Shown here: positions 2,179 to 25,808 of the stretch, piece by piece | Numbering within the stretch: position 1 is the stretch's first letter | Layout of the letters: each line of letters starts with the position of its first letter | Made by a program: the position numbers and the translations under genes | The notes under the pieces: generated by a model | Told to the model about the DNA's origin: nothing | Databases searched by the model: none | What the model saw: only the letters and a program-made list of their open reading frames with translations | IMG/VR virus record: IMGVR_UViG_3300023172_000163 | Location: 1-26,593 of that record | Length of the DNA: 26,593 bases | Direction: 5' to 3' (one strand) | From: a virus

Positions 2179-2724
2179 TCAAATAAAATTAGCGTTAATC
2201 AAGATACGATTTGGATGCTGTACAGGAGAGTGACCAGTATGGTAATAGTCTCCATCAAAGAAACACAACCGATTTTTCCTAGGAGCAATTTTTTTCTGGA
2301 CAGTGTACTCATCACACAGACGTTTTTCATTATACACCATAGTATATCCATCAGAATCTGACACATAATATATGGCAGTAATATTTTTGACTCCTGCTAG
2401 ATCAACATGAGCTGGATGTAATACCCTAGAAGTATTAGCAACCGTCATGTCAATACGTGCTCTAAGAAGTCGTTGAGCACCAACAGTATCTTGTACCTGT
2501 AACAGGAAAGGTTTTAACATCATACTAGCATATGTGTTAGTCCACCCACCTTCAACTTCACTGAAGAGAAGTAAACTAAATCCGTGTTCTACTGGAGATT
2601 GATTTTGTTGATATGGTTGTCCAGAACTACGGGGTTTAAAGTACCACTCTTGACCATCTGATTGAAGTTGAGATTCAATTAAATTAGCATATGATGGTGT
2701 CAGGAAGTTGTCAATCACTCTCAT
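2179..2724 (-). CDS. 2OG-Fe(II) oxygenase family protein
   Basis: 181 aa. The fold family oxidises protein, nucleic-acid or small-molecule substrates using 2-oxoglutarate, O2 and Fe(II). The visible iron site is HVD (H106, D108), with a distal histidine in YHTGHSP (H162 or H165) and a 2OG-binding arginine at about R173 in the segment HPNRILINANF. Spacing fits prolyl-hydroxylase-like members. ATGA overlap with gp45 upstream shows co-translation. It sits between clamp and clamp loader, which are adjacent in T4. The substrate is unknown. A second, different oxygenase lies at 7166-7804. Confidence 0.83.
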   Translation of the reverse strand: MRVIDNFLTPSYANLIESQLQSDGQEWYFKPRSSGQPYQQNQSPVEHGFSLLLFSEVEGGWTNTYASMMLKPFLLQVQDTVGAQRLLRARIDMTVANTSRVLHPAHVDLAGVKNITAIYYVSDSDGYTMVYNEKRLCDEYTVQKKIAPRKNRLCFFDGDYYHTGHSPVQHPNRILINANFI

Positions 2725-3677: not shown

Positions 3678-3848
3678 TTACTCGGAAAAGATGGTTTCCA
3701 GTTGATTATGATAGCACTCAAACACTTTGCCGTCAATACTTTGAACATAGAGTTTGAGTCCATCACCATCAAGGATTTTAACAGATCGACCGTCCTTAAG
3801 GACGGCAATACAACCACGATAACCGTGGAACTCGGTATCAGTTTTCAT
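3678..3848 (-). CDS. Small hypothetical protein downstream of cobS
   Basis: 56 aa, beginning MKTDTEFHGYRGCIAVLKDG from an ATG at 3848 that overlaps the cobS 3' end by 11 bases. A longer in-frame extension to 3929 would lie wholly inside cobS and is less likely. The predicted structure is a run of short beta strands (GCIAVLKDGRSVKILDGDGL, then KLYVQSIDGKVFECY), like a small barrel or KOW/SH3-type fold, but no family is recognised with confidence. Confidence 0.7.
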   Translation of the reverse strand: MKTDTEFHGYRGCIAVLKDGRSVKILDGDGLKLYVQSIDGKVFECYHNQLETIFSE

Positions 3849-4899
3849 CGGATTCCTCCACTTTGTCGTCGATTTTTTCATAGAGGGAAAGGAATGATTC
3901 CTTAGTCTCATCATCGAAACGGTTGACACAAGACTGGATTGCTTTCATCCGTTTGCCAAAGATTTTGTAAGCGTTGATGATGTGTACCAGGCGACGGGTG
4001 CTGATAATCTCATCAATACCACCATCATTAAAGGTCTTACGGATGATATCTGCCCAATCAACTAGACGAGATACAAACTCAGCGTCATCACACATCTTGC
4101 CAAGGATCTTTGCCTCAACAGCAGGGGTAGGATACTCCTGCTCAAAGGTCAGGGCAAATCGCTCAAGGAATGCTTCGTTGAGAACGTTAGTGCCGATGAA
4201 GCGACCATCATCGCTACCCTTGCCCTTGGTGTTGGCAGTAGCAACCACAGTGAAACCAGGAGCAGGGACGACATACTTACCAGTTTTCTTAAGGAACACA
4301 CCCTTGCCTTCAAGGATAGATTGGAGACACAGGATCTTATTGGATGCCAGGTCAACCTCGTCTAAAAGCAGCACAGCTCCCCTCTCCAGAGCTTCGATGA
4401 CAGGTCCGTTGTGCCAAACAGTGTTGCCATCAACAAGACGGAACCCACCAATAAGATCATCTTCGTCGGTTTCAATGGTAATGTTTACACGAATCAACTC
4501 TTTATTTAGAGCAGCACATGCTTGTTCAACAGAGAAAGTCTTACCATTACCAGACATACCAGTGATAAACACAGGGTAGAAAATACCAGAACCAAGGATT
4601 TTCTTGAGGTCGGTAAAGTTACCGAACGGGACGAAACCATCGTCTTTCTGGGGAACAAGGTTACGATCTTCCCGTTCGGGAGCAACCATCTCTTCCAATT
4701 GCTCACGTGCTTCTTCGATGGTCAGGTTCCACTTACCACGACCAGTTTTGTAGGGTTCCATACGATTACAAATAGTAGCGTAAGAATAACCCATGTGCTC
4801 AGCACCTGCCTTGATAGCAGCGGTGCCAACCTCGGTGCCAAAGTTCTCTTCAATGTAAGCGAAGAGTTGAATCATATCGATGTGAGCGGGACGGGGCAT
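3838..4899 (-). CDS. cobS: CobS-like MoxR-type AAA+ ATPase
   Basis: 353 aa. Residues 1-60 are a helical, possibly DNA- or partner-binding domain. The AAA+ core follows: Walker A GMSGNGKT (114-121), Walker B LLLDEVD (177-183), sensor-1 asparagine in VATANT (about 223) and an arginine-finger-like FLERF (about 244-248). The family name comes from the cobaltochelatase subunit of B12 synthesis, and cyanophage copies are usually called cobS. The fold class (MoxR/CobS) generally works with a VWA-domain partner as a chaperone or metal-insertion machine. A VWA protein is encoded immediately upstream (4968-7088). No CobN-like chelatase is in the window, so a B12 role is not supported here. It has its own putative promoter at 4924-4929. 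Confidence 0.9.
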   Translation of the reverse strand: MPRPAHIDMIQLFAYIEENFGTEVGTAAIKAGAEHMGYSYATICNRMEPYKTGRGKWNLTIEEAREQLEEMVAPEREDRNLVPQKDDGFVPFGNFTDLKKILGSGIFYPVFITGMSGNGKTFSVEQACAALNKELIRVNITIETDEDDLIGGFRLVDGNTVWHNGPVIEALERGAVLLLDEVDLASNKILCLQSILEGKGVFLKKTGKYVVPAPGFTVVATANTKGKGSDDGRFIGTNVLNEAFLERFALTFEQEYPTPAVEAKILGKMCDDAEFVSRLVDWADIIRKTFNDGGIDEIISTRRLVHIINAYKIFGKRMKAIQSCVNRFDDETKESFLSLYEKIDDKVEESDEN

Positions 4900-4923
4900 T
4901 GTGCTTTGTTTGTTGATGAACTA

Positions 4924-4929
4924 ATTATA
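4924..4929 (-). promoter_or_regulatory. Putative -10 box of the cobS promoter
   Basis: The minus strand reads TATAAT here, 24 bases upstream of the cobS ATG and followed by TA and the leader GTTCATCAAC. No TTGACA-like -35 element lies at 16-18 bases. In its place are three CTCTGCCC boxes. This suggests an activator-dependent early or middle promoter. A chance match is possible because the box is only six bases. Confidence 0.55.
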
Positions 4930-4930
4930 G

Positions 4931-4962
4931 GGGCAGAGTGGGGCAGACTCAGGGCAGAGTGG
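4931..4962 (-). repeat. Three tandem CTCTGCCC/TCTGCCC boxes upstream of cobS
   Basis: On the plus strand GGGCAGAGTG starts at 4931, GGGCAGACTC at 4941 and GGGCAGAGTGG at 4952, giving 10- and 11-base periods. On the transcribed strand these are CTCTGCCC-type boxes ending one base before TATAAT. One helical turn per copy places all three on the same DNA face, as in iteron-type protein binding sites. They lie between the upstream stop codon (4968) and the -10 box, so they are not coding. Confidence 0.6.
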
Positions 4963-4967
4963 ACAGT

Positions 4968-7088
4968 TCAGGAAACGACCGTGGCAAAGGAGGACAGGAT
5001 CTTTTTGTTGGTCGTCTTTGCCTTGAGCATTGAACGGAAGGACTTGCTGATCTCAGTCTTCTTAGCACCTTGTTCAACATCAAACTCAACGTCAGAAGAC
5101 AGTGTAGTTTGACCGAGAACATAGAGAGAATCATATCCAAGACCATTAAGTTCCCAGGATTTTTGTTTCCTCCACTTCTTCATGACAGCATCATGATCGT
5201 GATTCCAACCATGGATACCTTTGTACAGAGAACTGAAATCACCGCCATTACCAATTCGGAAACCGATAAAGTTAACCTCTGGAAAACTATCTTTCAGATT
5301 CTCCAGAAGAATAGTGGTCAAACTATTGGTAATCTCATAATCAAAGTGACGATAAGTTCTGCCAATCTTAGGATCACGAAGGCAACAGTTAGCTTGAACG
5401 CTACGGTTGCCAACATACTCATTCAACTCAACATCATAGCTTAGGTTGTTTCCTTCACCATCAGTAAGAATACAGACATTAACTTTCTGAAGATCATTCG
5501 CTATTCGGAAATAGGGAATGAGAGTCTTGAGAGTGATCAAACTTTCATTGAGAGGAGTGCCAGACAGATCCAGACCCATAGGGTTGTGATAGTAAATAGC
5601 ACTCCTGCTGTAGTAATAAGCAAGACGATACAGATGCTTAATGCTTGTATCAAAACTCTTGCTGTTGCTACGGGAAGTAGCAAGGTTCAGCAGAGAGAAT
5701 CGTTTGTGAACAGAAAGCATGTTGTTCTTACGTTCGTAAGCATACTCTTTTACGTACTCAGTTTCTTCTCCACCCTCAAAAATAGAGTTGTTCCATTCAT
5801 AGGTGAAAGCATAAACCTCAAAAGGAATCTGAACCTTACGGCAGAACCAACAAAGGTTGATGAGTTGCTTGACAGTATCCATGAGTACAGTGCCCATCGA
5901 TCCAGACCAGTCAAGAATAAAAATCATGCCATGGTTCTTACCATCAGGCAGAACAGTCACTTTCTTGAAGATGTCATCAGAATACTTATAAGTATGAAGC
6001 TTAGAAGTATTAAGAACACCAGTCTTAGATTGACCAGCACGAGCATAAGCGTCAGCAGACTTACGGCACTCAAACTCCTTAACAAGGTAGTTTACCTCCT
6101 TCTGAGAAGATTTCTTGAAGTCGTTGAAATCAGAATCAACTCCTTCAAAAATGTTACCCCACTGCTCAGCACGTTGCTCAGCAAGTCCTTTCCAGTATTT
6201 ACCAATGTAATCTTGAAGTTTATCGTAATCAACGATAACTCGGTCAAGATCAACTTTAGGAACCTCAAGATAGACAGGTTCCTGAGCATAAGAACGTTGG
6301 TTAGTCAGTTCTTCTGCTGCCTCATCAAAAGACTTTTGAGTTTGAGATTCGTAGTCTTCACCACCTTGCTTAGAGAAAGAAGGAGTTTCGAGATCGGCTT
6401 CATCACGTTTGCCGTTACCACTGCTGTCATCGGAATCATCGGTCTCTGCTTCAGTTTCTTGGGTTTGATTTTGTGATTGTGCTTCAGCAGAAGTAGACTC
6501 CTGTCCCTGCTGAGAAGATTGTGGAAGATTAGCAGGAGGAGTGTCTTCTTTCTGTTCGTCAAGATACTGTTTTAGTTCACGACAAACAGAGAGAACATCA
6601 TCAAAGGTCTCACACTCAGCAACCTTGTCTACAAAGATTGTCTCACTAGATTCAAAAGGAATGAGAGCATAAGCACCAATCTTAAAGTGAAGGTTGATAC
6701 GGTCGATCAGGTTGAACTTAGAAAGATCTTGATCTTTGATGTCAAAGAAGTCAGCATCGTTAAGTTCTTGGTAACCCCTGTAGAAGTCTTTGCTGAGACC
6801 AGCATACTTACGCTTCATTAACTTCTCAATACGAGCATCCTCCACAACATTAATGAAGTCTTTAGGAACATCGAAGTCCCACTTGTCAGCAGGTGTGTAC
6901 AGAGCATGACCGACTTCGTGACCCACCAGCAGGTCATAGACAATGTTAGATGCCTTGTCCCACAGGGGAAGAGTCAGCACACGACGGAGCACGTCAAAAG
7001 AAGCAGTGCTGACCTTACGGTGCTCAACCACAAGGTTCTCGGTAGCGAGCAGTCGTGCCAGGTTTCCTCGGATCTCTTGGTTGAACAT
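4968..7088 (-). CDS. VWA-domain metallopeptidase, probable partner of CobS-like ATPase
   Basis: 706 aa with three parts. (1) An N-terminal zinc-peptidase-like domain: HEVGH (57-61) followed by NVVEDARIE (80-88), the spacing expected for an HExxH protease with a downstream glutamate ligand. (2) A low-complexity acidic, Ser/Gln-rich linker at about 176-265, probably disordered. (3) A C-terminal von Willebrand A domain with a complete metal-ion-dependent adhesion site: DWSGS (392-396), the SGTPL threonine (510) and TDGEG (541-545). CobT-type proteins also have an acidic linker and a C-terminal VWA domain, but the HExxH motif points to proteolysis. No signal peptide or membrane segment is seen, so it should be cytoplasmic. 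Substrate unknown. Confidence 0.85.
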   Translation of the reverse strand: MFNQEIRGNLARLLATENLVVEHRKVSTASFDVLRRVLTLPLWDKASNIVYDLLVGHEVGHALYTPADKWDFDVPKDFINVVEDARIEKLMKRKYAGLSKDFYRGYQELNDADFFDIKDQDLSKFNLIDRINLHFKIGAYALIPFESSETIFVDKVAECETFDDVLSVCRELKQYLDEQKEDTPPANLPQSSQQGQESTSAEAQSQNQTQETEAETDDSDDSSGNGKRDEADLETPSFSKQGGEDYESQTQKSFDEAAEELTNQRSYAQEPVYLEVPKVDLDRVIVDYDKLQDYIGKYWKGLAEQRAEQWGNIFEGVDSDFNDFKKSSQKEVNYLVKEFECRKSADAYARAGQSKTGVLNTSKLHTYKYSDDIFKKVTVLPDGKNHGMIFILDWSGSMGTVLMDTVKQLINLCWFCRKVQIPFEVYAFTYEWNNSIFEGGEETEYVKEYAYERKNNMLSVHKRFSLLNLATSRSNSKSFDTSIKHLYRLAYYYSRSAIYYHNPMGLDLSGTPLNESLITLKTLIPYFRIANDLQKVNVCILTDGEGNNLSYDVELNEYVGNRSVQANCCLRDPKIGRTYRHFDYEITNSLTTILLENLKDSFPEVNFIGFRIGNGGDFSSLYKGIHGWNHDHDAVMKKWRKQKSWELNGLGYDSLYVLGQTTLSSDVEFDVEQGAKKTEISKSFRSMLKAKTTNKKILSSFATVVS

Positions 7089-12062: not shown

Positions 12063-13523
12063 TTATTTTAAATTAATTGGTATTACTTCATACTTAAAGT
12101 TTTCCTCTTGGTAGATCTTAATTCTTTCTGTCAAGTGATTGAGAGTATAGTTAGTTCTACTCTTAGAAGAGATATCGTCAGCGATATCATATAGGGTTGC
12201 TATGTCTTTGCCTTCGCCTTTCCTGAGGACACGTCCAATAGATTGAAGATTACGTACCCGTGACTTACTCGGGGAAGCAAAGATGATATTGTGTAAACGT
12301 TTAATGTTGATGCCAGTAGAGAACGTTCCGTAAGAAGCAATAATGATAGCGTTATCCTGAGTCTCGGTTAACTTACGTACTTCTTCCCTATCTTCTACAT
12401 CTGTACCGCCATGAACAAAGAAAATTTCACGGTCTGATATATTGTTATTTATTAAATCGTAAAGTGGTTCACCATGCTTCTCCACATAGTTAAACAACAC
12501 CAAGGTGTTACCATCGATATCATTAACTAGATTCTTAATTAGGTTGTTACGTTGTTCATGTTGTACAATATATTCCATCTCAGCATGATAGTCCTCAAAG
12601 TATTTGTACTCATGCTTACACACCAGCACCTTGATACGGAACTTGGAGAGGTGTCCTTGCTTGATTAGGTCATCTGTCCTAGTCACCTTCTCACAGGCAC
12701 CAAAGAGACCCTCCAGGACCCACTTGTGAGTCTTGCTGCCATCTAACGTACCAGTAAATCCAAAACGATATTTGGCATTGTGTAGCTTAGTCATGATTCC
12801 TGTGAGGGACTTCGACTTAAATAAGTGTGCCTCATCTCCGATAACACAGTCAATGTCATCAAAGTATCTTTTTGGGAACTTGTAGATTGACTGCCATGTA
12901 GAAATAATAACTGGTTTGTCAGTATTCTTATCTTTGCCCGAATATATTGTATGACAGTATTCGTCGGCATTCCATCCATAGTCTTTAAAATCTTTGATCA
13001 TCTGCTCTACCAATGAGGTAGTTGGTACGACTAGCAGAATCTTTTTACCTGCTGCAGCATAGTATCTCACGATACTGTAGATCATAAGGGACTTACCCGA
13101 TCCTGTCGGTGACAAAAACAACCCTCTGTTGTTCTTCAGTGCTTTGTACACCGTCATGTATTGATAGTCTCTAGGTTTGTACTTAGAGATACTATTCATA
13201 AAATCTGCTACACCTTTGGGGGAGACGAACCCGTTGCTTTCTTCAACGTCTCCATACCAATCGTTAGGTTCGTAACTTAATCTATACTTTCGTTCGGCAC
13301 ACCATTCTTTTAGATGGGGAAGTAATCCGCCATACAATTCACCTGTAGCAGGAGAGTACAGGTGAATCATACCATCCCAGTATCTAAATCTGGGCTGCCG
13401 TTTTAAGAACTTTGCTTCTGGTAATTCAAAAGAAAAGTAATCCGCTAATTCATGATGAACGTGCTGATCAGAATTAACGGTAAGATATACTTCGTTCTTC
13501 TTCTTGACAGTAATCAGGGACAT
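12063..13523 (-). CDS. uvsW: DNA/RNA helicase, T4 UvsW type (SF2)
   Basis: 486 aa, similar to T4 UvsW (about 500 aa). It unwinds R-loops and branched DNA and switches replication from origin-primed to recombination-primed. Motifs in order: KPRDYQ Q-motif (about 116-121), Walker A SPTGSGKS (138-145), DEAH (230-233), FTGTL motif III (256-260) and motif VI QSIGRVLRKG (about 430-440). The N-terminal 110 residues correspond to the small DNA-binding domain. A one-base overlap with uvsY couples the two recombination genes. Confidence 0.95.
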   Translation of the reverse strand: MSLITVKKKNEVYLTVNSDQHVHHELADYFSFELPEAKFLKRQPRFRYWDGMIHLYSPATGELYGGLLPHLKEWCAERKYRLSYEPNDWYGDVEESNGFVSPKGVADFMNSISKYKPRDYQYMTVYKALKNNRGLFLSPTGSGKSLMIYSIVRYYAAAGKKILLVVPTTSLVEQMIKDFKDYGWNADEYCHTIYSGKDKNTDKPVIISTWQSIYKFPKRYFDDIDCVIGDEAHLFKSKSLTGIMTKLHNAKYRFGFTGTLDGSKTHKWVLEGLFGACEKVTRTDDLIKQGHLSKFRIKVLVCKHEYKYFEDYHAEMEYIVQHEQRNNLIKNLVNDIDGNTLVLFNYVEKHGEPLYDLINNNISDREIFFVHGGTDVEDREEVRKLTETQDNAIIIASYGTFSTGINIKRLHNIIFASPSKSRVRNLQSIGRVLRKGEGKDIATLYDIADDISSKSRTNYTLNHLTERIKIYQEENFKYEVIPINLK

Positions 13524-13996
13524 TAGTTTCCATTAATAAACTTCTCCCATTCAATAGCGTTCTTCACATGATAATTTCTTTGTGAAATCATCTTTAAAAC
13601 ATTATCTAGAAAATAAAGCATCTGATCAATGTATTTGATTTTTGCTTCTTGGTTAATGATGTCGTCGTCCGACTCAAGATAGACTTTCATCTTGTCGGCG
13701 GTTTTAATACTTGATCCGAAAGGTTTCTCAGCGTAAACTTTTGCTTCTGCCTCCCCGCTGTAATACTCTCTTTTTTCTCGGACTAATTTACGGACTTCAA
13801 ATTCCAGACTGGTTTTAATCTGTGAAAGATCTGTGTAATGGTTTAAGTATTTATTATGTTGGAAAGGGATCTCCATTGAGATCTTGCCGAGGTCAGCACT
13901 GTAGTTCTTGTTCTTAAATTCAAACTCTACAAAACTATCTTGTGCCCACTCATCTTTAATTTTCTCAAATTTATTACGAAGAGATTCAAAATTCAT
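13523..13996 (-). CDS. uvsY: Recombination mediator protein UvsY
   Basis: 157 aa, slightly longer than T4 UvsY (137 aa). It loads the UvsX recombinase onto gp32-covered single-stranded DNA. The text fits UvsY: a charged helical N-terminus with EKIKDEWAQDS, KYLNHYTDLSQIKTSLEFEV, many lysines and arginines, and a C-terminal helix LYFLDNVLKMISQRNYHVKN followed by AIEWEKFING. Position before uvsW supports it. The start overlaps the gp3 stop as ATGA. Confidence 0.92.
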   Translation of the reverse strand: MNFESLRNKFEKIKDEWAQDSFVEFEFKNKNYSADLGKISMEIPFQHNKYLNHYTDLSQIKTSLEFEVRKLVREKREYYSGEAEAKVYAEKPFGSSIKTADKMKVYLESDDDIINQEAKIKYIDQMLYFLDNVLKMISQRNYHVKNAIEWEKFINGN

Positions 13997-14511
13997 TGTT
14001 GAATAGCAAAGGTTTCATCACGGATGTTGTACTTAGTATACTTGAATGTTACTTGAGCTGTAAAGTATTCGATGTCATTAGATGAAGCATCGAAACTCAT
14101 TTCAGATACACTAATTGGAAATAAATTTTCAAAATCAATAACATGATTTACATTGTACGACGAGGTGTAGATTAATACTTGACCATTACTATACTCTGGT
14201 TCTTGGGTCGGCATATGTCCTTCAGACACACCGTTTTGTCTTACCCAATCAAAAATAGAACGCCAGTTAATTAACTCTTCATCGACAATAAACGTCACAG
14301 ACAAGTCCCCATATGTTACCCCGCCACCAGCTACGATAGGAAATTGACGGAACCTAGTGGGGACTTCGGTGAATGGCATAGAAAGATCAGGGAGGTTAAC
14401 TCGCTGACAGAAAAAATCTACCCCCCGAAACTTTTCCAGTTGGAGTTTAAATCCAACTGGCGAGAGGTAGTTTCTATTTCCAATTTGTTCCTTATACCAT
14501 TCAGCAGGCAT
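13993..14511 (-). CDS. 3: Tail completion and tube-terminating protein (gp3)
   Basis: 172 aa, close to T4 gp3 (176 aa), which caps the top of the tail tube and fixes tube and sheath length. The protein has the tail-tube fold pattern, and its segments parallel gp19 in this window: GDLSVTFIVDEELINWRSIF here versus TWTATFFNDKDMKIRSYF in gp19, and NDIEYFTAQVTFKYTKY versus NDQIEEFTVEFQYAYW. In cyanophages gp3 is often found between gp23 and uvsY, as here. A late-promoter-like CTAAATAG lies 22 bases upstream of the ATG. Confidence 0.82.
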   Translation of the reverse strand: MPAEWYKEQIGNRNYLSPVGFKLQLEKFRGVDFFCQRVNLPDLSMPFTEVPTRFRQFPIVAGGGVTYGDLSVTFIVDEELINWRSIFDWVRQNGVSEGHMPTQEPEYSNGQVLIYTSSYNVNHVIDFENLFPISVSEMSFDASSNDIEYFTAQVTFKYTKYNIRDETFAIQQ

Positions 14512-14532
14512 GTGTCAACTTCCCAAGCATTA

Positions 14533-14540
14533 CTATTTAG
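14533..14540 (-). promoter_or_regulatory. Putative late promoter upstream of gp3
   Basis: The minus strand reads CTAAATAG. The core TAAATA matches the late boxes before gp23 and others. The TAA stop of the preceding 70-aa gene is the TAA inside this box. It could drive gp3, uvsY and uvsW late. Confidence 0.5.
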
Positions 14541-14749
14541 GTGTAGTATGCCTGGTAGTAAGCAACGATGCCTGCTGAAATAGCGTGTCCTTGACTTACC
14601 CAATCGTGACAACAAGAAGTAATACTCTCCATACTATGTACAGGAGAACCATCTTCATTTAACTGAGATCCAAACTTCTTGAGGAGGATACTATAAACCT
14701 CTTCACGTAGTTTCATACGAGCGTCACTGTAACGCCAGTCTTCATTCAT
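14537..14749 (-). CDS. Small hypothetical protein, third after the capsid gene
   Basis: 70 aa from an ATG at 14749 (MNEDWRYSDARMKLREEVYS) that overlaps the preceding stop by 8 bases. A seven-codon N-terminal extension is open but would overlap more. The protein is helical with a possible hydrophobic C-terminal helix (AISAGIVAYYQAYYT) and two adjacent cysteines (SITSCCHDW). No family is recognised with confidence. It ends inside the gp3 late-promoter box. Confidence 0.72.
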   Translation of the reverse strand: MNEDWRYSDARMKLREEVYSILLKKFGSQLNEDGSPVHSMESITSCCHDWVSQGHAISAGIVAYYQAYYT

Positions 14750-14912
14750 CGTAGTTGTACCAGAAGTCATCCCAGTCCTCCGTGGTTGCTTCGTAGATAG
14801 GGCATGGTTCCTCCATAAGGATTTCGTTCTTCATCTTAGCACAACGCTCCCGAAGAACCTTCTCGTCTGTGTCAGGTAGCATACCGTCTGTGTTGTCTAG
14901 GTCTTTTCTCAT
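14742..14912 (-). CDS. Small acidic hypothetical protein
   Basis: 56 aa, starting MRKDLDNTDGMLPDTDEKVL and ending TEDWDDFWYNYDE. The ATG overlaps the upstream TGA as ATGA and the stop overlaps the next start, so it is a link in a three-gene coupled set. The protein is strongly acidic and has an aromatic, Asp-rich C-terminal tail that could act as a protein-binding or DNA-mimic tail; that is only a suggestion. Confidence 0.65.
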   Translation of the reverse strand: MRKDLDNTDGMLPDTDEKVLRERCAKMKNEILMEEPCPIYEATTEDWDDFWYNYDE

Positions 14913-15073
14913 CGAACGTATTCGTTTAGGATGTCTAGAATTTCATTATAGGCATGGTGAGCACCATCGTGCCACTCACCATTCTTGTCTTGTCTTGAAC
15001 CGTTGTAAAGGGCGGTCTTTAATTTATATACTCTAGCGAGTAGGTCAGTTTTGCTCACGGATCCAGTGGACAT
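14909..15073 (-). CDS. Small hypothetical protein, first gene after the capsid terminator
   Basis: 54 aa, ATG at 15073 with GAGAAAG about five bases upstream. It begins MSTGSVSKTDLLARVYKLKT and ends GAHHAYNEILDILNEYVR. Mostly helical, with a central GEWHDGAHHAYNE histidine-rich segment that could bind metal. It is the first gene of a three-gene ATGA-linked set after the gp23 terminator, with a possible late box (ATTAAATA) 22 bases upstream. No function is known. Confidence 0.68.
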   Translation of the reverse strand: MSTGSVSKTDLLARVYKLKTALYNGSRQDKNGEWHDGAHHAYNEILDILNEYVR

Positions 15074-15094
15074 AATGCTTTCTCAGTCTATAGG

Positions 15095-15102
15095 TATTTA
15101 AT
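15095..15102 (-). promoter_or_regulatory. Possible late promoter after the gp23 terminator
   Basis: The minus strand reads ATTAAATA, sharing TAAATA with the late boxes, 22 bases before the 54-aa gene and directly after the terminator's U-run. The sequence is AT-rich here, so the match is weaker evidence than for gp17, gp18, gp22 or gp23. Confidence 0.4.
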
Positions 15103-15130
15103 AAAAAAGGGACCCCCGTTAGGGGTCCCT
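15103..15130 (-). terminator. Strong Rho-independent terminator after gp23
   Basis: Minus-strand RNA forms AGGGACCCC, loop UAACG, GGGGUCCCU, a perfect nine-pair GC-rich stem, followed by a run of U. It begins 24 bases after the capsid gene stop and should end most capsid transcripts. Confidence 0.92.
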
Positions 15131-15153
15131 GACAATTCAGTGAATCTGATGGA

Positions 15154-16551
15154 TCACATGAGGTTACGTACAAGAACACGTCTGTAGTACATGTTAACAC
15201 CAGCGGTGAGGGTCTCACCGTCAGGGGTGCCGTTGTAAGCACCGTTGGTGGTAACGAATGGGTTGCTGACCATACCGTAACGAGTCTTGAAGCCAATCTT
15301 GGGCTGGAAGTTGTTAGGATCGATCGAACGAACCATCTGGAGGGGAACGTATGGGCAATAGAAGAGACCAGCGTCATAAGGAGAGGTGCCCTTATAACCC
15401 ATTACGTAGTAGTGGTCATCGCTGAAGTTAGCAGAGTAAGGATCAACGTAGACCTTGATACGACCGTTAATAGTACCAACGGCAAGGTTGCCAGTGTCAT
15501 CAACAGTACCGATGGAAGGACCACCAGCGCCTGAGAGACCTGAGGAATAGTCAAGAACACCAGCCATGGCGAGAGCAGAAGCAACGTCAGCTGAACAGAT
15601 CAGGAAGTTGCCCTTTCCTCTACGAGTGTCTTGGGCGATAGCGTTAGCGTCACGCTCGATTTGGAAGAGAAGACCTTTGAACTTCTCAACCGACCAACGA
15701 CCGTTGCTGTCAACGTCGAGGTCGAAGATGCCAGCGTTAGCAACGTTGTTCTGAGCACCAGGCTTAGCAACGCTGTATACACGACGGACAACTTCACGGT
15801 TGATCTCAGCGAGAACTTCGCTAGACAGAATGTTAGCGAGCTCTTGCTCAGCGTCAAGACCATGGATCGCCTTGAGGTCTTGAGCGAGTTCTAGAGTGTA
15901 CTCAGCTTTGAGTGCTCTGGACTTAGCAGTCACAGAGGTCTTCTCGATGCTGAATGACATCTCACGGAACAGCTTACCAGCATCGCCAGCTTGCTCTAGA
16001 TCTTCACGTGAGAAACCACGGGTTGTTTCGTAGGTGCCACCGTCGTTGAGGAGACCAGGGTTGGTGCCAGCAAGGGCATCACCAGCGCCACCACGTGTGG
16101 TGTCATAAGCACCAGCAGTAGCGTCGAGACCAGCAGTGAAGTTGGCATCAGGCTCGTTGAACAGTGCCTCTTCTCCGCCTTGGTTCTCGTAGCGGGATCT
16201 CATAGCGAAGATGAGACCTGAAGGACCTGACATAGGCTGAACACCACAAACGTCATATGCCATTAGGTTAGGCATAGCACGACGAACGAGGCTGATTAGA
16301 ACGGGGTCGAAACCAGCAAGACCAGCGGTGTTGTTTGAAGCGAGAGCAGAACCAGCGGGGGTTACGGTGCTAGCGCCTAGTGAGTTTACGGCAACTTCAT
16401 TGATCATGCCGCGCTCTTCACGAAGAGCTCTTTCTTGGTTTTCCAGGAGTACAGAGGTCACTGCTCTCTTGTAGCGATCCTGGATTTCAGGAGCTTCGCC
16501 ATGGTTAAGAACAGGGGACCACTTTTCCTGGAGATGTTGTGCGTTAAACAT
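15154..16551 (-). CDS. 23: Major capsid protein precursor (gp23)
   Basis: 465 aa, shorter than T4 gp23 (521 aa) and close to the usual cyanophage size. Forms the hexameric HK97-fold shell of the head. It starts MFNAQHLQEKWSPVLNHGEA, and continues with the gp23-type QDRYKRAVTSVLLENQER and MPNLMAYDVCGVQPMSGPSG. The N-terminal segment is probably removed by gp21. An I-x-E site at MINE (after E52) and an L-x-E site at LLE (after E37) are candidate cleavage positions. A late promoter precedes it and a strong terminator follows it. No gp24 vertex gene follows, unlike T4. Confidence 0.97.
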   Translation of the reverse strand: MFNAQHLQEKWSPVLNHGEAPEIQDRYKRAVTSVLLENQERALREERGMINEVAVNSLGASTVTPAGSALASNNTAGLAGFDPVLISLVRRAMPNLMAYDVCGVQPMSGPSGLIFAMRSRYENQGGEEALFNEPDANFTAGLDATAGAYDTTRGGAGDALAGTNPGLLNDGGTYETTRGFSREDLEQAGDAGKLFREMSFSIEKTSVTAKSRALKAEYTLELAQDLKAIHGLDAEQELANILSSEVLAEINREVVRRVYSVAKPGAQNNVANAGIFDLDVDSNGRWSVEKFKGLLFQIERDANAIAQDTRRGKGNFLICSADVASALAMAGVLDYSSGLSGAGGPSIGTVDDTGNLAVGTINGRIKVYVDPYSANFSDDHYYVMGYKGTSPYDAGLFYCPYVPLQMVRSIDPNNFQPKIGFKTRYGMVSNPFVTTNGAYNGTPDGETLTAGVNMYYRRVLVRNLM

Positions 16552-16590
16552 TACTTTCTCCGAGTTTTTTGTTAGGAAATGTGGATAGAA

Positions 16591-16598
16591 TTATTTAG
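16591..16598 (-). promoter_or_regulatory. Putative late promoter of gp23
   Basis: The minus strand reads CTAAATAA, 39 bases upstream of the gp23 ATG, in the short gap after gp22. It shares TAAATAA with the late boxes of gp17, gp22 and the gp67/68-like gene. Confidence 0.7.
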
Positions 16599-16602
16599 GG
16601 AA

Positions 16603-17778
16603 TCACTGATTCCAGCGGTTCATTGCCTGGAGGTACATTGCCATTGCTGGTGTTACCTCTTCTGCTTCCACTGGAGTTTCGTCAGCAACTACTTTAGGAG
16701 CACCTTCCTTGGGGAAGTATGACTCTTTAATAGTGGTGAGTTTCTTAGAGAATTCCTCCTCAGAAGTAAACTCAACTCCCTCAGCGAGGGATGCTAGTTT
16801 GTCCTTTTGTGTGTCTACTAGATCCTCGGCAATTTGCTTGACGATGATCTGCTTAGCAGACTCATTAAGACGATTTTGAAGTTCAATATTAGCCTTAACC
16901 TGTTCGTTGAGGCGTTCTTCCATCTTACAAAGATCTTCAGTCATACCTTCGAGAACGTCTACCTTCTCGTCGGGGATTGAGATATAATGTGATTCAAAGA
17001 GATTCTTTAGACCGCTAATGAAGTCTTCAGTAATCTCATTTCTGATTCCGCGGTCAACAGCAACTTGGTTTTCCTCAAGCCACTTGGTGACGGCGTAGTT
17101 GACGGTGCCGTTAACTTCTTCAGCAAGTTCTTTCTTAACAGCTTCGACTTGCTCAGCGAGTTGTGTCTTGTAGTGCTCTTCGAGTTTGGTCCACTCTTCA
17201 GACAACTTAGACTTAACAGCAGCTTCAAAAATTGTTTTTGCTTTTTCAGCAAACTCTTCGCTGAGTTCAGTACCCTCGGTGAGAGCAGAAACATCAGCAG
17301 ATACGTCGAGGTCTTCAAACTTAGGTTTGATGGGATAGGTTACGCTACCACCTTCCTTGGTTCCGTAAGCAATTTCAGCACCGAACTTAGGAGCAGTTCC
17401 GTTAGGAAGATCAGTGTTAGAAGCGCCACGGTTAGGTTCGCCAGAGATACCACCAGAGATGGGAGCAGCAGCCTTAGCACCAGGATTCTCATCGCCATCC
17501 TCATCATGTTCATGAGGAGTGGTGGTTACGCTATTAACTTCAGCGGGTGCCTTCTGACCGATGGCAATACCAGGCTGAAGTGGAGCGGCATGTCCTGTAG
17601 CGCCTTCGCCAGCAGCGGCTTTAGCGTTAACAGCAGTATTTGATTGACCTGAAGCAGCGGCGTCACCAGGAAGAACAGCAGCCGTCACCGTTGGCATTGG
17701 ATCTTGTCCTGCCTCAGCGAGGACAGTGGCGTGCTCACTGGCAAACTCCTCAAACTTTTCGTTAAGCATATCTGACAT
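16603..17778 (-). CDS. 22: Prohead core scaffolding protein (gp22)
   Basis: 391 aa, longer than T4 gp22 (269 aa). It is the main internal scaffold around which gp23 assembles and is later digested by gp21. Residues 20-150 are Gly/Ala-rich and low complexity, including HEHDEDGDEN. Residues 170-345 form long charged helices (such as EEWTKLEEHYKTQLAEQVEA) typical of scaffolds. The C-terminus PAMAMYLQAMNRWNQ resembles the conserved end of gp22 proteins. Its place between gp21 and gp23 is diagnostic. A late promoter lies at 17819-17826. Confidence 0.93.
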   Translation of the reverse strand: MSDMLNEKFEEFASEHATVLAEAGQDPMPTVTAAVLPGDAAASGQSNTAVNAKAAAGEGATGHAAPLQPGIAIGQKAPAEVNSVTTTPHEHDEDGDENPGAKAAAPISGGISGEPNRGASNTDLPNGTAPKFGAEIAYGTKEGGSVTYPIKPKFEDLDVSADVSALTEGTELSEEFAEKAKTIFEAAVKSKLSEEWTKLEEHYKTQLAEQVEAVKKELAEEVNGTVNYAVTKWLEENQVAVDRGIRNEITEDFISGLKNLFESHYISIPDEKVDVLEGMTEDLCKMEERLNEQVKANIELQNRLNESAKQIIVKQIAEDLVDTQKDKLASLAEGVEFTSEEEFSKKLTTIKESYFPKEGAPKVVADETPVEAEEVTPAMAMYLQAMNRWNQ

Positions 17779-17818
17779 TTGAGTTTTCCTCGTAAGTATC
17801 TAAATGATTATTCTAAGA

Positions 17819-17826
17819 TTATTTAT
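17819..17826 (-). promoter_or_regulatory. Putative late promoter of gp22
   Basis: The minus strand reads ATAAATAA (in context TCATAAATAATC), immediately after the gp21 stop and 40 bases before the gp22 ATG. Confidence 0.72.
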
Positions 17827-17830
17827 GAAT

Positions 17831-18475
17831 TCAAAGATTTGAAAGGAACTTGTCAAATGCGGAAAGCATTTTTTCTTCTAGATTAATTCTAGAAGCGTTA
17901 TCAATTTCCTTTTTCATCTCTTGGATTTGTCTTTCACGGAGTAAACCGCCTTCCCAAACCCATTCTTTACCTTCCATAATTCCGTTGACGAAAGCGTCAG
18001 GAGCGGAAGGATCTGCTACGATATCAGCAGCAGTGGCGAGCATGAAGTCATCACTAACATACTTCACGCCGTTTTCCTCTTTGAGAGAACCCATTCCTCT
18101 GGAGGAAACACCAAGTTTTACACCTTCACCGAGGAGACTCTTGGCAATTTTACCCATGGGAGTATCAAGAATTCTTGCTTTACCCATGAAGTTGTTACCC
18201 TCTGCCTTTAGTGATGTGATCTTGTGAGACACTCGATCAAGATTGACAGTGGGACCGTCAGGGTGACCTAGTTCACCTAGGGCACGACCAGCTTTGACAT
18301 ACTCTTCAGAATATCTTTCAACTTCTTTATTGAGAACATCGAAAGGATAGATTCTTCCGTTACGGTTCTTAATCTCCGACTGGAGGAATACACCTTCAAT
18401 GTAGAGGTGCTTTTCACCATCCTTTTCCTCTGTAAGGATACGGATGTCTTCGATGCTTTCAGTAATTAGTTTCAT
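17831..18475 (-). CDS. 21: Prohead core protein and maturation protease (gp21)
   Basis: 214 aa, near T4 gp21 (212 aa). A herpesvirus-protease-fold serine protease that cleaves the scaffold and capsid proteins during head maturation. Residues visible: the catalytic histidine H71 in GELGHPDGP and the catalytic serine in GVSSRGMGS (S124 or S125). The N-terminal QSEIKNRNGRIYP is a conserved part of the fold. The start overlaps the upstream small core gene by four bases (ATGA), linking their translation. Confidence 0.95.
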   Translation of the reverse strand: MKLITESIEDIRILTEEKDGEKHLYIEGVFLQSEIKNRNGRIYPFDVLNKEVERYSEEYVKAGRALGELGHPDGPTVNLDRVSHKITSLKAEGNNFMGKARILDTPMGKIAKSLLGEGVKLGVSSRGMGSLKEENGVKYVSDDFMLATAADIVADPSAPDAFVNGIMEGKEWVWEGGLLRERQIQEMKKEIDNASRINLEEKMLSAFDKFLSNL

Positions 18476-18666
18476 TGTTCTTCTGGAGTATCTCCTGTTG
18501 GTTCATCAAAGAACGTATTAGCTACGGTCTTCTTATATGTATCAATTGTTTCTGATGCTTTAGCATAAAGGATGTCCTCAATAGCATCGAGAGCATCCGC
18601 TCGTTTTTTGTCAGCAATTAAGTTGACAACATTGAGCACTTCAGAATCTAATGGTTGATCAGACAT
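18472..18666 (-). CDS. Small prohead core protein, gp67/gp68 position
   Basis: 64 aa, between portal gp20 and protease gp21, where T4 has genes 67 and 68. The protein is helical and acidic (LIADKKRADALDAIEDILYA, then KASETIDTYKKTVANTFF) as expected of a head-core component. Cyanophage homologues of this position are sometimes called gp67; sequence alone does not prove it. It has a late-promoter box 22 bases upstream and an ATGA overlap with gp21. Confidence 0.75.
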   Translation of the reverse strand: MSDQPLDSEVLNVVNLIADKKRADALDAIEDILYAKASETIDTYKKTVANTFFDEPTGDTPEEQ

Positions 18667-18687
18667 AACATAAAAACGGGTTATTAG

Positions 18688-18695
18688 TTATTTAT
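18688..18695 (-). promoter_or_regulatory. Putative late promoter of the gp67/68-gp21 pair
   Basis: The minus strand reads ATAAATAA, whose last three bases are the TAA stop codon of gp20. It lies 21 bases upstream of the next ATG. Confidence 0.68.
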
Positions 18696-20373
18696 CAGTT
18701 TTCTTTTTTGCCGCTGGTGCTGGAGCGGGTTTTGGCATTGCCTTCATCTTTTCAATCTCTCTTGCTTGAGCATCGTCCGCTGCTTGTGCTTCTAGTTCAG
18801 GAGCAAAGGCATCGTTTTGACGATCCATCATGTCAAACGTATTAATGTCAGCAGGATTCATAGCAAGACCAGAGTCAATATCACCCTTGATTTGCTTATC
18901 CATTTCCTTCATTTCTTTCTCAGTCTGTTGGAGAATTTGACGACGGATGTAGTCAACAGAGAAATACTTACCAAGGAATGGATCCATTTGAGTAACGAGG
19001 TTCATACGTTGTAGCATCATTTCCTGTTCCTTCAATTCATTGAAGTGGTTGTCAAACAGGAAGTCATACTGGATATGTTCTTCCATCTCATCCCAATCTT
19101 CGGGAGCAATTACTCCTTTGAGGATGAGTTGTGTCTTGAGAAGATCGTGGAAAAGTTCGCTAAATCTTTTACGAAGTCTTCCGATGAACTTACTGAACTT
19201 GAGTTCGTCACGTAGGACTTCAGTTGTTTTACCGAGGTTAAATCCTTTGTTATCGTCGGTAAGACGAGAAGGGGGAAGGTTGAGAGAGTTATAAAGCTTC
19301 TTCTTGAAATACTCAACATCTTTGAGTTCGCCTAGGTTTTGACCACCAGGAAGAGTTGTGATTTCAGTTCCTCTGCCACCTTCGCGGCGAGGAAGCCAGA
19401 AGTCTTCCAGCATACTCATATGCTTTTTGTCATCACGGATCTCACCAGTGCTAGCATCGTAAACTAGTTTGTTACGATAACGCGCCATCACGTCACGGAG
19501 ATATTGTTCCGCTTTGACCTTAGGTAGATTGCCGACATCGATGTAGAAAATTCTACGCTCTGGAGCACGGGACAATCTGTAGATAACAAGAGAGTCTTCA
19601 ATCATACGGAGTTGATTGAGAGACTTGATTGCTTTGTGTAGGAAACTCAATGGTTGTTTCTTGTTCAGATCCATTAGACCTGAGTTACACTTAGCAATAG
19701 AATCTGCTGCCATCTTGATTCCGTTTGAGGAAGCGAAATCAAATGTAGCGTTTACGGTCATGGCATTGGCATAACCTTTAGGATTGTAGATATAGTAATC
19801 AATGTAATCACCCCAGTCATACTCAAGAGCAGTTCCTTTTGCTCCTTGAGATGCTGCTTCTGGACTCTTAATCTTCTGTCTTACCTTACGTAATTTGAGA
19901 GGATCAATATAACGAAGTTCTAGGATACCTTTCTTGGGTTTGTCCAAGTCGATAACCTTATGATAATATGTACGACCATCGATGTACCAAGTCCGAATGA
20001 TTTGGTGAGCATTCTTGTCGAAGTTTAAAAGTTTTTTGATGTAATTAAATTCATCACGGATCTTTTTCTTGACACCAGCACTGACATCAAGGTTAGATAA
20101 TTCAATTTCAACAGGAGAATCATCAGCATCGCTGACAACAAACTCATTGACAATTTCGTCAATAGCAGAGTCACACTCTGGATGAAGCGCCATATCTCTA
20201 TAACGCTTGATCAGTTCATATTCATTCCGACCCTGTGAGCCATCGACATCCACATATGTACCAAAATGACCCCCAGCGGCTACCGCTACGGAGTCATCTT
20301 GATTTGGTGGGATAGGGGATTGACCCCTATCCTCACCACTTTTATTAATAATAAAACCGAAGAGTTGACTCAT
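18688..20373 (-). CDS. 20: Portal vertex protein (gp20)
   Basis: 561 aa, near T4 gp20 (524 aa). Forms the dodecameric portal ring through which DNA is packaged and to which the tail joins. Recognisable stretches include GRNEYELIKRYRDMALHPEC near the N-terminus, SDADDSPVEIELSNLDVS, LVIYRLSRAPERRIFYIDVG in the middle, and LPGGQNLGELKDVEYFKKKL. The C-terminal tail is Lys/Pro/Ala-rich (PKPAPAPAAKKKTDK). Order gp18-gp19-gp20 is the T4 order. A double palindrome and late-promoter box sit in its leader. Confidence 0.97.
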   Translation of the reverse strand: MSQLFGFIINKSGEDRGQSPIPPNQDDSVAVAAGGHFGTYVDVDGSQGRNEYELIKRYRDMALHPECDSAIDEIVNEFVVSDADDSPVEIELSNLDVSAGVKKKIRDEFNYIKKLLNFDKNAHQIIRTWYIDGRTYYHKVIDLDKPKKGILELRYIDPLKLRKVRQKIKSPEAASQGAKGTALEYDWGDYIDYYIYNPKGYANAMTVNATFDFASSNGIKMAADSIAKCNSGLMDLNKKQPLSFLHKAIKSLNQLRMIEDSLVIYRLSRAPERRIFYIDVGNLPKVKAEQYLRDVMARYRNKLVYDASTGEIRDDKKHMSMLEDFWLPRREGGRGTEITTLPGGQNLGELKDVEYFKKKLYNSLNLPPSRLTDDNKGFNLGKTTEVLRDELKFSKFIGRLRKRFSELFHDLLKTQLILKGVIAPEDWDEMEEHIQYDFLFDNHFNELKEQEMMLQRMNLVTQMDPFLGKYFSVDYIRRQILQQTEKEMKEMDKQIKGDIDSGLAMNPADINTFDMMDRQNDAFAPELEAQAADDAQAREIEKMKAMPKPAPAPAAKKKTDK

Positions 20374-20376
20374 CTC

Positions 20377-20404
20377 AATAGATCTATGTTCCTATAGATC
20401 TATT
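20377..20404 (-). repeat. Twin ATAGATCTAT palindromes in the gp20 leader
   Basis: ATAGATCTAT occurs at 20378-20387 and 20394-20403, spaced by six bases. Each copy is itself a perfect 10-bp palindrome, and together with one flanking A-T pair they can form an 11-bp hairpin with the minus-strand loop AGGAAC. The element sits between the late box and the gp20 ATG. Confidence 0.7.
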
Positions 20405-20407
20405 TAT
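20401..20407 (-). promoter_or_regulatory. Putative late promoter of gp20
   Basis: The minus strand reads ATAAATA (context CTAATAAATAGATC), 27 bases upstream of the gp20 ATG. It overlaps the outer arm of the twin palindrome. Confidence 0.62.
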
Positions 20408-20411
20408 TAGA

Positions 20412-21068
20412 TTAGAGAACGATCTTCTTCGAAGTACCAGTTCTGCCAGAGTCGCCAGCATCAAGAGGTCCTGTGGTAGCACCGTCAACTAACCAGTAAG
20501 CATACTGGAACTCAACAGTAAACTCTTCAATCTGATCGTTGCTGTCATAAGCAAGATCAATCTGAGATACGTTGGTTGGGAAGCAATGCTTGAGGATGTA
20601 AGATCTTAGGATCTGACCACCTTCTTCGCCATGCTTCTCAAGTTGCTTGACAGTAACTTCCGCCATGTAACCATTGGTTTCCTTGGTAGGAATAAAGTTA
20701 GGAGCGTAGTTACCTTCGTGGGTGTTCATCGACTCTAACCATGCTTCGAAGTAAGAGCGAATCTTCATGTCCTTATCGTTGAAGAAGGTAGCAGTCCAAG
20801 TATCGAAGGTACGATCACCAGCGATCTTGACGGTTCTACCACGGAAAGGAACTTCGATAACACCAAGGTTAGAAGCAGGTAGAGCGGCGGACTTACAAAG
20901 TACATCGACAAGAGTTTTGTCGCTTAGTCCAGCAGCTTCCCCACCGCCATCAGCGCCAGGGGTTCCGCCTTCTAGTCCGCCAGTAGGCCATTGAATATCA
21001 ATGGCGAACATATTGGGCTTTACGCCTTGCCCAATATTAGTGATAAAGTCGTTAATTCTAGTTGCCAT
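20412..21068 (-). CDS. 19: Tail tube protein (gp19)
   Basis: 218 aa, longer than T4 gp19 (163 aa). Stacked hexamers make the inner tube of the contractile tail. The tube-fold strands are visible: VIEVPFRGRTVKIAGDRTFD, then TWTATFFNDKDMKIRSYFEA, and DQIEEFTVEFQYAYWLVDG near the C-terminus. The extra length includes a Gly-rich loop at residues 28-45 (GGLEGGTPGADGGGEAAGL). No late box is obvious directly upstream; it is probably transcribed with gp18. The likely ribosome site is AGAGGA about ten bases before the ATG. Confidence 0.94.
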   Translation of the reverse strand: MATRINDFITNIGQGVKPNMFAIDIQWPTGGLEGGTPGADGGGEAAGLSDKTLVDVLCKSAALPASNLGVIEVPFRGRTVKIAGDRTFDTWTATFFNDKDMKIRSYFEAWLESMNTHEGNYAPNFIPTKETNGYMAEVTVKQLEKHGEEGGQILRSYILKHCFPTNVSQIDLAYDSNDQIEEFTVEFQYAYWLVDGATTGPLDAGDSGRTGTSKKIVL

Positions 21069-21107
21069 TTGTTTTTTCCTCTAATACGTTTGTGAAATTA
21101 TTAATTA

Positions 21108-23309: not shown

Positions 23310-23344
23310 GAGTTTCTCCTGAGGTATCCAGATTTAATCTAAAA

Positions 23345-23352
23345 ATATTTAT
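23345..23352 (-). promoter_or_regulatory. Putative late promoter of gp18
   Basis: The minus strand reads ATAAATAT (context ACATAAATATTTT), 35 bases upstream of the gp18 ATG in a noncoding gap. Confidence 0.72.
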
Positions 23353-23391
23353 GTTTTTGAACTCCTTGAGTGGGGAAACAAAACATGAACA

Positions 23392-23622
23392 TCACCAATC
23401 AGGATAGTCCCACATCGAAGTCAGATCGTTTCTTTTTCTAGATTCTATTACTCTTTTGACAGTACACAATTTACATTCGTATGAATATGCTGACGCTACA
23501 GTTGCTCTATCTTTTCTTGTTAAGTAAAAATCATCCATCAAACTTTTGGTCTTGCCACAACTACGGCAAGTTCTTTCCTTGAATATTAAATGATCTAGAG
23601 AAAACTGATCTTCTAAATTCAT
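23392..23622 (-). CDS. Small zinc-ribbon protein between gp17 and gp18
   Basis: 76 aa from the ATG at 23622 (MNLEDQFSLDHLIFKERTCR), which shares one base with the gp17 stop codon. A GTG-started form would extend into gp17. Two cysteine pairs, CRSCGKTK and YECKLC, 29 residues apart, form a probable zinc ribbon. The C-terminal basic helix (TVKRVIESRKRN) could contact nucleic acid. Similar ribbons often form the N-terminus of phage HNH endonucleases, but no HNH catalytic motif is present. It may be a nuclease remnant, or a packaging or transcription accessory protein. Confidence 0.75.
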   Translation of the reverse strand: MNLEDQFSLDHLIFKERTCRSCGKTKSLMDDFYLTRKDRATVASAYSYECKLCTVKRVIESRKRNDLTSMWDYPDW

Positions 23623-25274: not shown

Positions 25275-25294
25275 CACATATTATTCGCCTAGAA

Positions 25295-25302
25295 TTATTT
25301 AT
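25295..25302 (-). promoter_or_regulatory. Putative late promoter of gp17
   Basis: The minus strand reads ATAAATAA (context GGATAAATAATTC); its last three bases are the stop codon of the preceding gene. It lies 20 bases before the gp17 ATG. Confidence 0.7.
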
Positions 25303-25567
25303 CCCTCATATCTTTGTCCATCTCTGGACCATTCTTATCCAGATCTTCCATACGTTTTGCCCAAGTGTCTCCACCTTCAGCACCACGCTTGGGGTTAATA
25401 CACTGAAAGTTTCCTAACTTATTACAAACAAGACCAGCAAGATCTAACTCGTTTCCTAACTTACCAGTACCAGACCAGTAGTGCTGTCCGTTAATCCAAA
25501 CCGCACCACACTTCGGACATTCTGCCCTAGTCATACTAAGGTCAGATAATTCTTTGTCTGATTCCAT
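25295..25567 (-). CDS. Zinc-ribbon hypothetical protein upstream of terminase
   Basis: 90 aa, ATG at 25567. It has CPKCG (about residues 17-21) and a second pair in LVCNKLGNFQC (about 47-56), a spacing compatible with a treble-clef or rubredoxin-like zinc site. The middle is Gly/Trp-rich (WINGQHYWSGTGKLGNELDL), and the C-terminus is highly charged (MEDLDKNGPEMDKDMRDK). The gene immediately precedes gp17 and shares its stop with the gp17 late box. Its job may relate to packaging or late expression, but only position suggests this. Confidence 0.78.
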   Translation of the reverse strand: MESDKELSDLSMTRAECPKCGAVWINGQHYWSGTGKLGNELDLAGLVCNKLGNFQCINPKRGAEGGDTWAKRMEDLDKNGPEMDKDMRDK

Positions 25568-25579
25568 TTGATTAGTCCG

Positions 25580-25621
25580 TAGTGTTACACTAGTATAGTG
25601 TATCTAGCAAAAAATAGTGTA
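25580..25621 (-). repeat. Cluster of TAGTGT/ACACTA repeats in a leader
   Basis: On the plus strand TAGTGT starts at 25580, 25596 and 25615, and the inverse ACACTA starts at 25587. They give two nested palindromes: TAGTGT-T-ACACTA (25580-25592) and TACACTA-GTA-TAGTGTA (25586-25602). They lie between a late-like box and the zinc-ribbon gene, so in RNA one UAGUGU segment can pair with any of three ACACUA segments. Confidence 0.65.
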
Positions 25622-25633
25622 AACTTAAGCTAC

Positions 25634-25641
25634 GATTTATA
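25634..25641 (-). promoter_or_regulatory. Putative late promoter upstream of the zinc-ribbon gene
   Basis: The minus strand reads TATAAATC, seven of eight bases of the T4 late consensus TATAAATA, in a noncoding gap. A start about ten bases downstream would place the TAGTGT/ACACTA cluster within the 5' leader. Confidence 0.5.
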
Positions 25642-25673
25642 CGTAATATGACAATATGAAGATAAAATAAAAG

Positions 25674-25808
25674 TTATTTGTCTTCTAGTTCTCTTAGGTA
25701 TTCGGTCCACCAATCAGGATCTTTTTTCATTTTCCACTTGGGAACAGGAAGACCTTGCTCAGAATACCACTCCTGAATTGCTTCATTGATAATCTGTGCT
25801 ACTTCCAT
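25674..25808 (-). CDS. Small hypothetical protein
   Basis: 44 aa from the ATG at 25808 (MEVAQIINEAIQEWYSEQGL), which has a very strong GAGGAAGAGGA ribosome site just upstream. A start at 25889 would give 71 aa but overlap the upstream gene by 107 bases. The rest is PVPKWKMKKDPDWWTEYLRE and LEDK: a helix, a Pro-rich turn and a Trp-rich acidic end. No function is recognised. The stop is followed by about 106 bases without a gene. Confidence 0.62.
   Translation of the reverse strand: MEVAQIINEAIQEWYSEQGLPVPKWKMKKDPDWWTEYLRELEDK

Follow-up and report, generated by a model that had tools for sequence, protein, structure and literature searches.

What do the CobS-like AAA+ ATPase of T4-like cyanophages and the protein encoded beside it do for the virus? 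We examined this for positions 1 to 26,593 of the IMG/VR virus record IMGVR_UViG_3300023172_000163 (hereafter the window; 26.6 kb), a fragment of a T4-like cyanomyovirus. The gene pair encodes a 706-amino-acid (aa) protein with an N-terminal HExxH motif and a VWA-type half, followed by a 353-aa AAA+ protein. An earlier note, made from the sequence alone, placed the two open reading frames (ORFs) at 3838-7088, which is exact, and proposed a remodelling/protease system. The pair belongs to the core gene set of marine T4-like cyanophages (PMC3037559, PMC8651126) and has already been published under two readings, as cobST (PMC8651126) and as MoxR-vWA with an N-terminal metallopeptidase (PMC7824862). 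We consider that the pair probably forms a MoxR-VWA-type machine that remodels proteins at the expense of ATP, has an active zinc peptidase as partner and serves around the time of replication. Systems of this kind have been described before; what this analysis contributes is the reconciliation of both published readings, the link to cellular CobT and the evidence for retention of the catalytic site.

The HEVGH and NVVED motifs, the acidic linker and the complete VWA metal site described in the earlier note were all located in the 706-aa protein (Table 1). Homologues gathered from IMG/VR comprised 133 long ORFs with a MIDAS. HExxH, including the catalytic Glu, was found in the N-terminal domain (N-domain) of 132/132 intact phage ORFs, and nearly all have a downstream ED....E motif; the 133rd ORF (L044) is interrupted, and its HEVGH sits in the upstream piece. 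HExxH was contained in none of the seed peptides used for the homologue scans, while one seed peptide (HNIVEDTM) biases the count of the ED motif in its subset. In a conservation set of 115 cyanophage, pelagiphage and T4-like sequences (effective number ~29), H57, E58, H61, N80, E83, D84 and R86 were 100% conserved. The N-domain was the best-conserved region (mean major-residue frequency 0.63 vs 0.41 in the VWA half), and the MIDAS is complete, with D393/S395/S397, T511 and D543 all invariant. At the level of sequence, the motifs are not due to chance, because seven N-domain residues are invariant and HExxH is present in every intact ORF. Glu58 is invariant, yet it is dispensable for mere metal binding, and its conservation therefore points to catalysis. 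In a Pfam/NCBIfam search, the 706-aa protein gave neither a peptidase nor a VWA match; a TOPRIM_C match (0.0068) in its mid region was dismissed as chance.

Residues 1-182 were modelled with AlphaFold2 using 61 window and locus sequences as input. The model has a mean pLDDT (predicted local distance difference test score) of 86.9 and the element order H-E-E-E-H(HExxH)-H(E83)-H-H-H-H, in which the helix bearing HExxH is followed by the one bearing E83. The best solved structures retrieved by Foldseek were the minigluzincins selecase, abylysin and jannalysin, then ArdC and PprI/IrrE. The first 16 matches were all metallopeptidases or zincin-fold proteins, with probabilities mostly of 0.9-1.0 (maximum 1.0) and a best E value of 0.017. 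Minigluzincins likewise have HExxH and a Glu on the next helix, but they are small stand-alone peptidases without an AAA+ partner or VWA, and identity was 11-15% for most matches. We are confident in the prediction of a gluzincin-like zincin fold with HExxH and a downstream Glu ligand, and Glu83 is likely the third metal ligand in the model; structure prediction, which the earlier note had named as a check on its peptidase domain, thus returned a zincin fold with invariant catalytic and metal residues. A search of predicted viral structures recovered the same domain from CobT-like/VWFA proteins of many phages and also of haloarchaeal tailed viruses; one of the latter is HHTV-2, for which a cobT split over two ORFs has been reported (PMC8651126).

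The VWA half connects the protein to cellular cobaltochelatase subunits. Its family profile matches the PDB CobT VWA chains 9uka_G and 21vt_A (CobT match 5.9e-41). At the place corresponding to HExxH, cellular CobT has the motif in 0/79 and 0/30 loci, and DSMAL and VEQARVE stand where the phage proteins have HExxH...E. A direct comparison of the cyanophage N-domain with the cellular CobT profile was not significant (hhalign probability 4%), and the two are linked only via intermediates: cyanophage N-domains match those of Rhizobium/Klebsiella-type phages (hhalign 8.6e-13), which in turn match cellular CobT (2.6e-4) in an alignment that places HEV.H over DSMAL. The protein of E. coli phage PhiR41_1 (HEVAH) matches the Pfam CobT N-domain PF06213 (9.2e-27, residues 9-294) and PF11775 (7.8e-82), and the bacterial protein L301 (HEAAH) also matches PF06213 (6.2e-13). 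In the predicted N-domain of cellular CobT, the secondary-structure elements follow one another as in the phage domain; a Foldseek search with it gave only a weak M1 peptidase match (probability 0.44), which is suggestive at best. In a tree of the VWA part, rooted at the midpoint only, cellular CobT groups in a single clade (100/100), which is nested next to phage proteins that bear the zincin (87/79).

By these sequence comparisons, the 706-aa protein belongs, distantly, to the CobT superfamily. The cellular CobT N-domain (PF06213) looks like a degenerate copy of the same domain, a pseudo-peptidase. The AAA+ and VWA parts are likewise homologous to cellular and phage CobS-CobT (Liu et al. 2021, PMC8651126; TIGR01650/TIGR01651; PDB 9uka, 9ujv), while the phage pair differs from cellular CobS-CobT in keeping HExxH...E, in scoring far below the equivalog cut-offs and in occurring in phages without CobN. 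In Pseudomonas phage ZY21 (L058:3448-5532) and its nickie relatives, SEISK replaces HExxH and ESFFCE replaces the ED motif; these CobT-like proteins retain the VWA and the AAA+ partner despite the loss. The simplest reading is that CobT lost the zincin site once and that the ZY21/nickie phages lost it separately. NorD/CbbO-like VWA proteins of ~780 aa (L305, L308, L310, L313, L314) gave a weak zincin-profile match; they retain H..AH and EDARVE but have no catalytic Glu, and may be another degenerate branch. A small number of VWA proteins of this type with HExxH intact were seen in bacterial genomes (L301, L302, L303/L296, L304, L306); L296 resembles a mobile element and has a primase-like gene nearby.

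The smaller protein is a complete MoxR/CobS-type AAA+ ATPase, as the earlier note had stated, with intact Walker A and B motifs and an AAA_5 match of 1.7e-19 in Pfam (AAA_3 and CbbQ_C were weak). Its nearest sequence matches are midasin and CobS chains, and NorQ and CbbQ chains also match. Its gene was found directly downstream of the VWA gene, on the same strand, in 122/122 loci with enough sequence; in the window the gap between the two ORFs is 68 bases. In annotated phage records both genes had equal counts (365 Synechococcus, 61 Cyanophage and 24 Prochlorococcus), compared by host label rather than by accession list. Co-occurrence across related phages, which the earlier note had named as a check, thus holds in essentially every related phage. 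VWA proteins with HExxH also occur in far-related phages of E. coli, Klebsiella, Rhizobium, Vibrio, Roseobacter, Stenotrophomonas, Pelagibacter and Ochrobactrum, and they adjoin an AAA+ gene wherever the region is annotated. With the Ochrobactrum phage protein as query, no viral contigs were recovered. A peptide deformylase gene lies beside or near the pair in an Ochrobactrum phage (L056:3270-3764) and a Pelagibacter phage (L072:1614-2168). AAA+ proteins of Staphylococcus phages annotated as 'porphyrin biosynthesis' were rejected as pair members, their neighbours having neither MIDAS nor HExxH. This arrangement of a CobS-like AAA+ gene was seen in a Staphylococcus Kayvirus (L057:5863-7838) and a Rhizobium phage (L059:5554-8199); the two neighbour proteins have an HPSFLRR/NPSFLRR-like stretch in common and may be degenerate VWA proteins.

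Where the pair stands in the genome bears on when it would act. It sits between gp46/47 and gp45/44 both in the window and in those Kyanoviridae that were examined, and in unrelated phages genes for primase, ligase or DNA polymerase III alpha lie close by. The late-promoter motif ATAAATA (PMC2984593) precedes 5/9 structural-block genes and 0/19 other genes in the window (hypergeometric p ~0.001). It was absent before the pair in the window and was found upstream of the pair in 0/41 homologous loci. The window contains eight such motifs (12446-26038, minus strand), all on the coding strand, and five of them lie 25-48 bases before gp17, gp18, gp20, a 64-aa gene and gp22. A literature search for the transcription timing of cyanophage cobS found nothing.

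These observations bear on a published alternative, in which the pair would be a late virion-assembly chaperone combined with peptide processing of structural proteins. It was put forward for the group 2.2 jumbo-phage MoxR/vWA pair (Iyer et al. 2021, PMC7824862) by analogy with the MoxR-vWA pair of tail assembly in the archaeal virus ATV. The jumbo-phage pair has the same architecture, with an AAA+ gene beside a VWA protein carrying an N-terminal metallopeptidase, and the same chaperone-protease idea was proposed for it; the likeness is drawn from the published description. Because the cyanophage pair is located among replication genes, as in unrelated phages, and is not preceded by the late motif that marks structural-block genes, a role in late virion assembly is not favoured and appears unlikely; position and promoter context fit the replication phase better.

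The pair could also be a viral cobaltochelatase CobST that joins the host CobN and boosts cobalamin synthesis, 'peptidase' then being a misannotation. Hijacking of CobN has been proposed (PMC8651126), the AAA+ protein is closest to midasin/CobS chains, the VWA half matches CobT, and cyanobacterial hosts have CobN without CobS/CobT (PMC9227772). We nevertheless regard cobalt chelation as disfavoured and rather improbable. HExxH is missing from cellular CobT and is kept by every intact phage ORF, the AAA+ protein scores 72.6 bits against the CobS equivalog TIGR01650 (cut-off 558.55), and the 706-aa protein does not match CobT (TIGR01651). The earlier note had pointed out that no chelatase large subunit is present; CobN is indeed absent from the window and from the whole genomes of nine related phages that carry the pair. 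A class I (B12-independent) ribonucleotide reductase (RNR) small subunit was found in 8/9 of these genomes. E. coli, used as a control genome, does not have CobN, although the pair, zincin motif included, is retained in the E. coli phage PhiR41_1. The lack of CobN, the class I RNR and the E. coli phage bear out the note's doubt about a pure B12 role. In addition, part of the older case for a B12 role depends on namesakes: CobS has been treated as the 'final step' (PMC2984593) and CobT as the lower-ligand enzyme (PMC11288001). In these papers the names are used in the Salmonella sense (cobalamin synthase and lower-ligand activation), and the Salmonella proteins are enzymes different from cobaltochelatase CobS/CobT. 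The kinship with CobT, on which PMC8651126 is borne out, together with the retained zincin site means that the label 'peptidase' is not simply wrong. In cells, CobN (PF02514) was not detected in 9/54 proteobacterial genomes with a CobT match (G015, G023, G082, G085, G122, G130, G150, G158, G185), some assemblies of which may be incomplete; in the Caulobacter control CobT was detected and CobN was not. CobST may have a role without CobN in cells too.

Also improbable is that the zincin domain binds metal in a structural or regulatory role, as in the degenerate CobT domain, with only MoxR-VWA remodelling being of importance: CobT and NorD/CbbO-like VWA proteins keep the domain without a catalytic site, so the architecture works without cleavage, but Glu58, the catalytic residue, shows the same invariance as the metal ligands, and the whole motif is gone where function drifted (CobT, ZY21). 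A reading as a defence system was rejected, PADLOC having given no match.

In the proposed remodelling and protease machine, an ATP-driven ring would be built from the CobS-like AAA+ protein, and the 706-aa protein would dock on it via its VWA/MIDAS half, bringing with it the predicted gluzincin-like zinc metallopeptidase domain. A phage or host protein bound by the motor would be pulled or remodelled and handed to the zincin to be cut, probably while the infection is in its replication phase. Parts of this model are supported by the gene pairing, by the invariance of the catalytic and metal residues, by the predicted fold, by the intact AAA+ and MIDAS motifs and by the kinship with CobS/CobT. 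RavA-ViaA, CbbQ-CbbO and NorQ-NorD likewise consist of a MoxR AAA+ motor and a VWA partner and remodel a target protein. To our knowledge, none of the VWA partners of RavA, CbbQ and NorQ has a complete HExxH peptidase site. The remodelling/protease proposal of the earlier note is partly supported, by the predicted zincin fold, the pairing and the doubt about B12; the CobT kinship of the VWA protein and the degenerate N-domain of cellular CobT had escaped it.

Several points weigh against a peptidase machine of the replication phase. No Pfam peptidase model matches, which makes the profile search suggested in the earlier note negative. No Foldseek match in PDB reaches an E value of 0.001, so that the domain is assigned to no exact peptidase family. 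A few relatives, those of Pseudomonas phages ZY21/nickie, are without the HExxH motif, and the promoter evidence is a consensus match only. Moreover, the close cellular relative CobT works without a peptidase site, and therefore the motor half can function without proteolysis.

Table 1. Coordinates of the gene pair and its sequence features in the window.
Feature	Positions	Strand	Basis
706-aa zincin-VWA protein, distant CobT relative	4968..7088	-	phrog_459 'peptidase' 1.5e-261; T4-like GC146 in P-HM1
N-terminal domain, residues 1-182, predicted gluzincin-like fold	6543..7088	-	AlphaFold2, Foldseek
HEVGH, residues 57-61: two predicted metal ligands and catalytic Glu58	6906..6920	-	H57, E58, H61 invariant
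NVVED, residues 80-84 (NVVEDARIE 80-88)	6837..6851	-	N80, E83, D84 invariant
Acidic low-complexity variable linker, residues ~183-285	6234..6542	-	Sequence; residues 180-270 mean conservation 0.28
VWA-type half, residues ~386-706	4971..5933	-	Profile match to PDB CobT VWA chains; conservation
MIDAS DWSGS, residues 393-397	5898..5912	-	D393, S395, S397 100% conserved
MIDAS SGT (LSGTPL), residues 509-511	5556..5564	-	T511 100% conserved
MIDAS TDG (TDGE), residues 542-544	5457..5465	-	D543 100% conserved
353-aa MoxR/CobS-type AAA+ ATPase	3838..4899	-	phrog_249 (6.6e-136), annotated CobS or 'porphyrin biosynthesis'
Walker A GMSGNGKT, residues 114-121 of AAA+ protein	4537..4560	-	Sequence; cellular CobS alignment
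Walker B LLLDEVD, residues 177-183 of AAA+ protein	4351..4371	-	Sequence; cellular CobS alignment

The gene order on the minus strand of the window is gp17, gp18, gp19, gp20, gp21, gp22, gp23, UvsW, gp55, gp47, gp46, a 2-oxoglutarate (2OG)-Fe(II) oxygenase, the 706-aa protein, the AAA+ protein, a DUF3310 protein, gp45, a second 2OG oxygenase, gp44 and a Dam-type methylase. The gp names were assigned from translations and synteny with related Kyanoviridae loci. The gene at 2179-2724 (minus strand) carries the PHROG label 'DNA endonuclease V' (phrog_274) and matches a 2OG-Fe(II) oxygenase in Pfam (3.5e-6); the endonuclease V label is probably wrong.

As a tentative extension, an active AAA+/zincin-VWA unfolding protease may be common to bacterial and archaeal tailed viruses in the replication phase, and CobT, perhaps along with NorD/CbbO-type partners, may have descended from it by loss of the site. 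This would offer a concrete origin for the CobT N-domain as a dead zincin. Ocean surveys commonly treat cobS as a viral gene for vitamin B12. Should the pair prove to be a protease machine, this ecological conclusion would be wrong, and an abundant viral function would be left to assign.

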